A DNA stretch of 64,000 nucleotides from an uncultured Hyphomicrobiales bacterium (GTDB lineage Bacteria; Pseudomonadota; Alphaproteobacteria; Rhizobiales; Beijerinckiaceae): the NCBI GenBank assembly GCA_903825465.1, contig CAIKAR010000030.1, forward strand, positions 186,001 through 250,000, written 5' to 3'. A program made the position numbers and the translations under genes. Under the pieces are notes generated by a model. It was not told where the DNA came from and did not search any database. It saw only the letters and a list, made by a program, of their open reading frames with translations. Positions 113 through 461 of this stretch are shown here, in pieces; position 1 is the stretch's first letter; each line of letters starts with the position of its first letter.

Positions 113-308
113 GGATCCCTCCGCCGGCCACGGGGCCGATATTTTGAGGGAATGAAGATCGCGGCGACGCCGCCTGTCAACCAAAACTTGCGCAATTTGG
201 CGTGAATTGAGTCGCCGCCGCCCCTTTTCCCGGCGCCGGGCTCTTTCCGATCGCCCGCGAATCTGCCTACATTCGGTTTGTCGTCAACAACCGAAAGGAG
301 GTGATCTA

Positions 309-386
309 GTGTCTCATTGTCCAATGCTGCGGTCGTCGGATCAAGGGACCTGGACCCACGCTCTTGTGGGAGTCAGCCCCGCGTGA
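309..386 (+). CDS. 25-residue leader peptide (upstream reading frame)
   Basis: A GTG codon lies 7 bases after GGAGG (297-301), giving a near-ideal initiation site. The predicted peptide begins MSHCPMLRSSDQ, contains a Thr-Trp-Thr-His segment and ends Val-Ser-Pro-Ala before TGA at 384. It has no signal peptide or domain. The coding stretch contains the 5' halves of the leader hairpins, so translation would decide which hairpin can form; this is the arrangement of transcription-attenuation leader peptides. There is no run of one amino acid that would name an inducing substrate. Function is inferred from layout only. Confidence 0.5.
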   Translation: MSHCPMLRSSDQGTWTHALVGVSPA

Positions 387-429
387 GCGGCGCCTCGTGG
401 TCCCGCCGGACCGCGGTCAATGACAATGG

Positions 430-461
430 AAGGGCCGCTTTCGGGCGGCCCTTCTTTTATT
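430..461 (+). terminator. intrinsic terminator of the leader RNA
   Basis: AAGGGCCGC (430-438), a six-base loop and GCGGCCCTT (445-453) form a perfect 9-bp stem, followed by CTTTTATT. GCGGC at 387-391, just after the leader-peptide stop codon, could pair with GCCGC at 434-438 and act as an antiterminator; this is inference. Confidence 0.75.

Follow-up and report, generated by a model that had tools for sequence, protein, structure and literature searches.

The window, the whole 64,000-nt stretch of DNA analysed here, carries on its forward strand a compact element (285..452) that is followed by two co-oriented genes. The first gene (547-1644) encodes a zinc-type alcohol dehydrogenase, with NDMA-dependent alcohol dehydrogenase as its best NCBIfam match, and the second (1703-2722) encodes a Rieske oxygenase that is best matched by 4beta-methylsterol monooxygenase, in both cases below cut-off. 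An earlier note had described the element as a leader with an ideal ribosome site, a 25-codon peptide and mutually exclusive hairpins, and all of these parts were recovered in place. The complement to 16S rRNA, AAAGGAGGTGATC, lies at 294-306 and has a single occurrence in the 3.9-Mb assembly. The GTG-started frame comprises 25 codons and a TGA stop (309-386, stop at 384-386), and its peptide, VSHCPMLRSSDQGTWTHALVGVSPA, shows no run of control codons when read directly, in agreement with the statement that it has no amino-acid run. Both proposed folds can form, that is, GGGACC (345-350) with GGTCCC (399-404), and GGTCC (399-403) with GGACC (408-412). The intrinsic terminator (430..458) consists of a 9-bp stem (430-438/445-453) and a T-rich tail to 458, and the ATG of the dehydrogenase at 547 is situated 85 bases past position 461.

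Positions 285-452 form an end-to-end match to RF01867 ("CC2171, caulobacter sRNA"; model positions 1-159), with 74.7 bits and an E-value of 5e-16. The score falls 0.3 bits below the gathering cut-off of this family (75 bits), and a default Rfam scan is therefore silent. The scan that the earlier note had named as a check thus returned nothing in its default form, and returned RF01867 when E-values were shown. The same note took a known Rfam family over exactly this part of the sequence as an argument against its proposal; RF01867 does cover it, at 0.3 bits under the cut-off. The conserved 5' block and the CAUUGUC:GACAAUG pairing before the terminator, both of which are features of RF01867, are present in the aligned window element, which is a clear homologue of this family, though it is not called a member at the cut-off.

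BLAST searches with the element gave matches in 35 of 61 genomes, including its own, and the RF01867 model (E<=0.001) matched 161 of the 297 genomes of the order, again including its own. The element is easily overlooked: 129 of these 161 genomes matched below the Rfam cut-off and 32 above it, and none of the nine plasmid records found carried a listed feature under the match, in a gene table that is incomplete. Each matching genome of the order had one match, except for G155, which had two. Among 14 named control genomes, RF01867 matched Caulobacter vibrioides only. At the level of the class, a strict 5' pattern matched 9 of 289 genomes, and a looser one matched 58 of 289, with 0 for the reversed control. 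Sphingomonas, Azospirillum, Brevundimonas, Methylobacterium, Microvirga, Bosea, and Roseomonas were among the matches listed, as were two elements in Methylobacterium tarhaniae (L081 and L138). Two elements with different 5' patterns were observed in another genome (G344), and Skermanella plasmid records carried the element at two places.

The layout at this locus, with a peptide, hairpins, a terminator and, 85 bases further, co-oriented genes, had led the earlier note to propose a ribosome-controlled attenuator acting in cis on the dehydrogenase-oxygenase pair. However, this linkage is not found elsewhere. Across 268 loci of more than 1.2 kb, the dehydrogenase recurs in the window's own copies (L001, L002, and L068) and only once outside them, in L084, where it has 30% identity and runs in the opposite orientation to the element. 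Some elements have distant Rieske oxygenases nearby (27-42% identity), and in L041 a gene with Rieske and VanA_C domains is located upstream of the element on the other strand. Neighbours were defined for 173 distinct elements as the nearest mechanical open frame of at least 80 codons on each side, not as annotated genes; by this definition, the nearest downstream frame was on the opposite strand, and hence convergent, in 87 of 148 loci, and the 310 neighbours formed 216 similarity clusters with at most 10 members each. The element lacks conserved linkage to a downstream gene, a run of control codons, and an antiterminator that excludes the terminator, by all of which an attenuator can be recognized. 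Given the missing linkage, the convergent neighbours, pairings that are not conserved, and promoter-like boxes upstream, an attenuator for this gene pair is very improbable. Sensing of an aldehyde or another small molecule, which had been suggested together with it, loses its support along with the gene-pair linkage, and nothing else supports it.

As raw counts, the neighbour clusters included a glutamyl-type tRNA synthetase (10; upstream, other strand), RF3 (9; upstream, other strand), and an RNase R-like protein (7; downstream of the element), and a Skermanella plasmid carried RNase J and HflX just upstream of the element. Neighbours related to translation or RNA decay were observed at loci that include L004, L092, L073, and L291. 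Other clusters comprised NAD synthase, DUF188, Rieske/VanA_C proteins, and unknowns.

Upstream of the ribosome site, the column information of 186 distinct elements revealed two boxes, one T-rich (-49 to -47) and one TA-rich (-26 to -20), with little signal around them. The putative counterparts in the window (244..273) are TTT at 244-246 and TACATT at 268-273. These boxes are consistent with a promoter of the element's own and a predicted start about 10 nt before the ribosome site (near 280-283), and a scan of the window with a strict sigma-70 consensus found 0 promoters. The suggestion that the element may be an autonomous small RNA has held up. The element is most likely a free-standing small RNA gene that occurs across Alphaproteobacteria, rather than a switch of the dehydrogenase next to it.

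The extended Shine-Dalgarno of this gene (293..309, GAAAGGAGGTGATCTAG) can pair over 17 nt with all of the free 3' tail of 16S rRNA, in a duplex made up of 14 consecutive Watson-Crick pairs, one G-U pair, and two further Watson-Crick pairs. The computed duplex with the 16S tail reached -30.7 kcal/mol, compared with -10.2 for a plain AGGAGG site. The 16S end used for this computation was that of one genome of the same genus (L231); this end had 0 matches in the assembly from which the window comes. When the window element was folded as a single sequence, part of the ribosome site was hidden; this occlusion was rejected as a candidate because positions 391-396, with which the site pairs in this fold, are variable among the aligned sequences.

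The reading frame behind this site is conserved in length. Among 217 distinct elements (all later loci added, near-duplicates removed), frame 0 ended after 14-36 codons in every one, compared with 59 and 69 of the 217 in the other two frames. In an earlier set, 169 of the 171 elements that reached a stop did so after 20-28 codons, the exceptions being L109 (14) and L105 (33), and stops in this range were found for 11/153 in frame +1 and 17/152 in frame +2. No search selected for frame length and many selected for the 5' block; since the elements are related and were so chosen, these counts are not independent trials. The printed consensus of RF01867, translated from the same GTG, reads VSHCHQPRPPAWAWPPPKALSA followed by a stop, and the RF01867 model also finds 14-codon frames, VSFTKRCHLAGIAR and VSYLKRCHLAGIAR, in L191-L193 and L196. 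GTG and ATG starts interchange among elements. An involvement of the ribosome, which the earlier note had suspected, is likewise supported.

The frame also bears on whether the RNA acts in trans as a base-pairing sRNA (Hfq-type or not), stays untranslated in normal growth, and carries the frame as a by-product of other constraints. RF01867 is filed by Rfam as an sRNA, the RNA has a stable fold and a terminator, and, according to one study, most Caulobacter ncRNAs originate in intergenic regions for which ribosome profiling indicated no translation, with CC2171 not necessarily among them (PMC4117421). However, a by-product would hardly show stops after 14-36 codons in 217/217 elements in one frame and in 59 and 69 in the others, GTG or ATG starts at an ideal distance, and length changes in whole codons. 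This makes an untranslated sRNA quite unlikely.

If the frame is translated, its product could be what matters, that is, the element could be a functional micro-peptide gene (VSHC.../MSS...) in which the strong ribosome site only sets the rate of synthesis. The conservation of frame length and phase would agree with this, as would the common VSHC/MSHC start and a Trp within residues 10-18 in 106 of the 143 elements of this type. The Ser four places after this Trp uses four codons, and this, together with the recurring Trp, makes a weak constraint on the peptide possible. Furthermore, over 89 overlapping nearest pairs, synonymous changes in frame 0 numbered 160 vs 128.5 expected (z 3.3; frame +1, z 1.9; frame +2, z -1.7). 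However, with 57 disjoint pairs the synonymous excess was no larger in frame 0 (z 1.7) than in frame +1 (z 1.7), and from codon 12 onward it was z 0.9 in frame 0 and 1.8 in frame +1. The recurrent residues are mostly encoded by one codon, as in Thr before Trp (ACC in 55/55) and Glu (GAG in 41/41), which looks like a constraint on the RNA. A search pattern that allowed synonymous sites at codons 2-4 gave nine matches in the class, and all nine used TCTCATTG, which indicates no synonymous play at these codons; the VSHC codons coincide with an arm of the closing helix P1 described below. Peptides of different families (VSHC..., MSS...EQPS..., VSFTKRCHLAGIAR) differ widely and share little, and an NCBIfam search with two of the peptides returned nothing. 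In L220 (2500-2720), a base is inserted after the GTG and offset later, and 24 codons are kept with a different peptide; this single case, for which the kin L244 and L245 have no insertion, could be a sequencing error, but if real it would also argue against a functional peptide. The amino acids of the frame appear nearly free, as the substitutions show no clear selection on them, and a functional micro-peptide is considered unlikely.

The RNA at 290-470 folds better than shuffled sequences (z -3.6, 0/200), and the opposite strand does so as well, to a lesser extent (z -2.4, 3/200). The most conserved pairing, which the earlier note had missed, is formed by P1, between 314-321 (codons 2-5) and 422-429, and P1b, between 326-334 and 409-417. 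The 3' arm of P1 abuts the terminator stem; these helices join the first ten codons to the 3' end next to the terminator, and they show covariation. When the 3' strands were swapped among 186 distinct elements, the mean duplex energy changed from -22.4 to -17.7 kcal/mol. For P1b in the VSHC group (n=142), the own strands gave -18.0 vs -14.5 for swapped ones, and for P1 in the non-VSHC group (n=44), the values were -6.9 vs -4.7, with 0/200 swaps as good in either case. The control segment (codons 13-19) was not better than swaps, of which 165/200 were as good.

An alignment of 18 sequences, comprising 17 of the 27 same-genus loci and L147, gave a nested closed structure; L017, L018, L020, L022, and L026-L031, which have inserts or are shorter, were omitted from it. 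In this structure, 89% of cells were paired, compared with 34-52% when the alignment was slid, and 31 cells had a two-sided change vs 11.4 in shuffles (0/500). Further pair types did not exceed those in shuffles of the 18 sequences (93/500). P1 is invariant in this alignment and is uninformative there. P2, the GGGACC:GGTCCC pairing of the earlier note (345-350 with 399-404), had 81% of cells paired in the aligned sequences and two pairs with two-sided change, and the terminator stem was 100% paired, with two-sided changes. On the other hand, the local hairpin 399-403:408-412, which had been proposed as the alternative to P2, showed no covariation beyond shuffles in the 18 sequences (181/500 for paired percentage, 122/500 for score). 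A further candidate helix inside the frame, P4, was rejected as weak, with 62% of cells paired in the 18 sequences.

Compared with mononucleotide shuffles, the segment between stop and terminator folded somewhat better (mean z -1.1, n=119 from a sample of 120). GCGGC just after the stop, which had been suggested to pair with the terminator stem, is invariant in the 18 sequences. However, the terminator arm that it would face is variable, with GGCCAT in L008 and L010, and the GCGGC:terminator pairing is therefore not conserved. The invariance of GCGGC is explained by P3, a 4-bp hairpin at 379-390 with a GTGA or GTAA loop, which is invariant in the 18 sequences except for this loop difference. 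P3 (CCGC-GTGA-GCGG), which holds at the level of the genus only, has the stop codon within a GNRA-type tetraloop. L009 and L011 have a GTAA loop with TAA as the stop, and both loop type and stop are kept.

The reading we favour, with a probability of roughly 0.55, is that the element is a stand-alone small mRNA of the CC2171/rreB kind that captures 30S subunits and in which translation, and not the peptide, is used. Capture would occur at the extended Shine-Dalgarno, which can pair with the entire free 16S 3' tail. At rest, P1 and P1b would hold the first ten codons closed with the 3' end, adjacent to the terminator. The footprint of a 30S subunit extends from about -18 to +16, and a subunit on the GTG would have to open P1. 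In the model, the opening of P1 changes the fold from -86.2 to -72.1, a cost of 14 kcal/mol vs 31 from the 16S-tail duplex. An elongating ribosome would then open P1b and P2. The median distance from the stop codon to the terminator is 44 nt, from which it follows that a terminating ribosome would just miss the 3' arms, and these arms may be left free to refold once the ribosome ends at the stop. Selection would act on the length of the frame and on two states of the RNA (closed and ribosome-occupied), with the amino acids largely free. Most likely, the lifetime of the RNA, or its availability to a putative partner or downstream target, follows ribosome occupancy, and the RNA serves neither as a source of peptide nor as a cis leader. 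An extension of this reading, which we offer as a tentative possibility, is that the element is a class-wide, mostly single-copy gauge of ribosome availability in Alphaproteobacteria that reads the 30S supply through its occupancy, in which frame length alone sets the helices that can be opened and the peptide hardly matters. If true, a general sensor of ribosome availability is now filed as a non-coding sRNA.

This kind of element is already known twice, namely as RF01867 and as rreB/rreR, and the present analysis adds the link between CC2171 and rreB, the evidence on frame length, the observation that the peptide is near-neutral, and a closing helix with covariation. A family that Rfam holds as non-coding and a small mRNA that was reported separately appear to be the same element, which is usually present once in a genome that has it. 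No text joining CC2171 with rreB was found in the literature searched; the 2017 study by Hahn et al. (RNA Biol 14:1353) was itself outside this search and may do so. If selection keeps the length of the frame and not the peptide, the element would be a clean natural case of translation itself as the signal. The purpose of RNAs with an oversized Shine-Dalgarno would then also become testable in Caulobacter, Bradyrhizobium or Methylobacterium.

Among known systems, attenuators of the peTrpL/rnTrpL type resemble the window element in having, on a small RNA, a short frame with a terminator behind it. In contrast to them, the window element has no control codons, no linked biosynthetic gene, and no antiterminator, and rnTrpL is leaderless whereas the window element has an oversized ribosome site (PMC10117765). 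RF01867 itself appears in an Rfam 15 table with one added covarying pair (PMC11701678), and a Mesorhizobium RNA, MH_s33, is assigned to it in a table of PMC5596092. The window element shares with RF01867 the 5' block, the position of the frame, the closing pairing, the terminator, and an end-to-end match to the model; the difference is that Rfam types the family as a non-coding sRNA, whereas the evidence presented here points to a frame that is probably translated.

The architecture of the window element is also that reported for rreB (Bradyrhizobium) and rreR (Rhodobacter lineage), a "small mRNA with extended Shine-Dalgarno". These RNAs are said to be small mRNAs with a complement of about 17 nt to the 16S tail, a GTG start, and a very short frame. 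Of the features reported for them, at least 16 nt of complementarity to the 16S rRNA 3' end are found in the window as a 17-nt duplex that includes one G-U and has a strict Watson-Crick run of 14, and a short frame directly behind the site is likewise present. The window element, which is known here from sequence alone, differs by its 25 codons, its other peptide, and the G-U pair in the 17-nt duplex; the 14-codon elements (L191-L193 and L196) are presumably as long as rreB. Sites of this type were reportedly noted by Hahn and colleagues in Caulobacterales, Rhizobiales, Rhodobacterales, and Rhodospirillales, and the wide spread seen here is therefore only partly new. In the same work, rreB is said to encode 14 amino acids behind a 17-nt site, to co-sediment with 30S subunits, and to be weakly translated, and changing its start codon to a stop reportedly prolonged the lifetime of the RNA. 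These reported results on lifetime and 30S association would fit an RNA whose state is set by ribosome occupancy.
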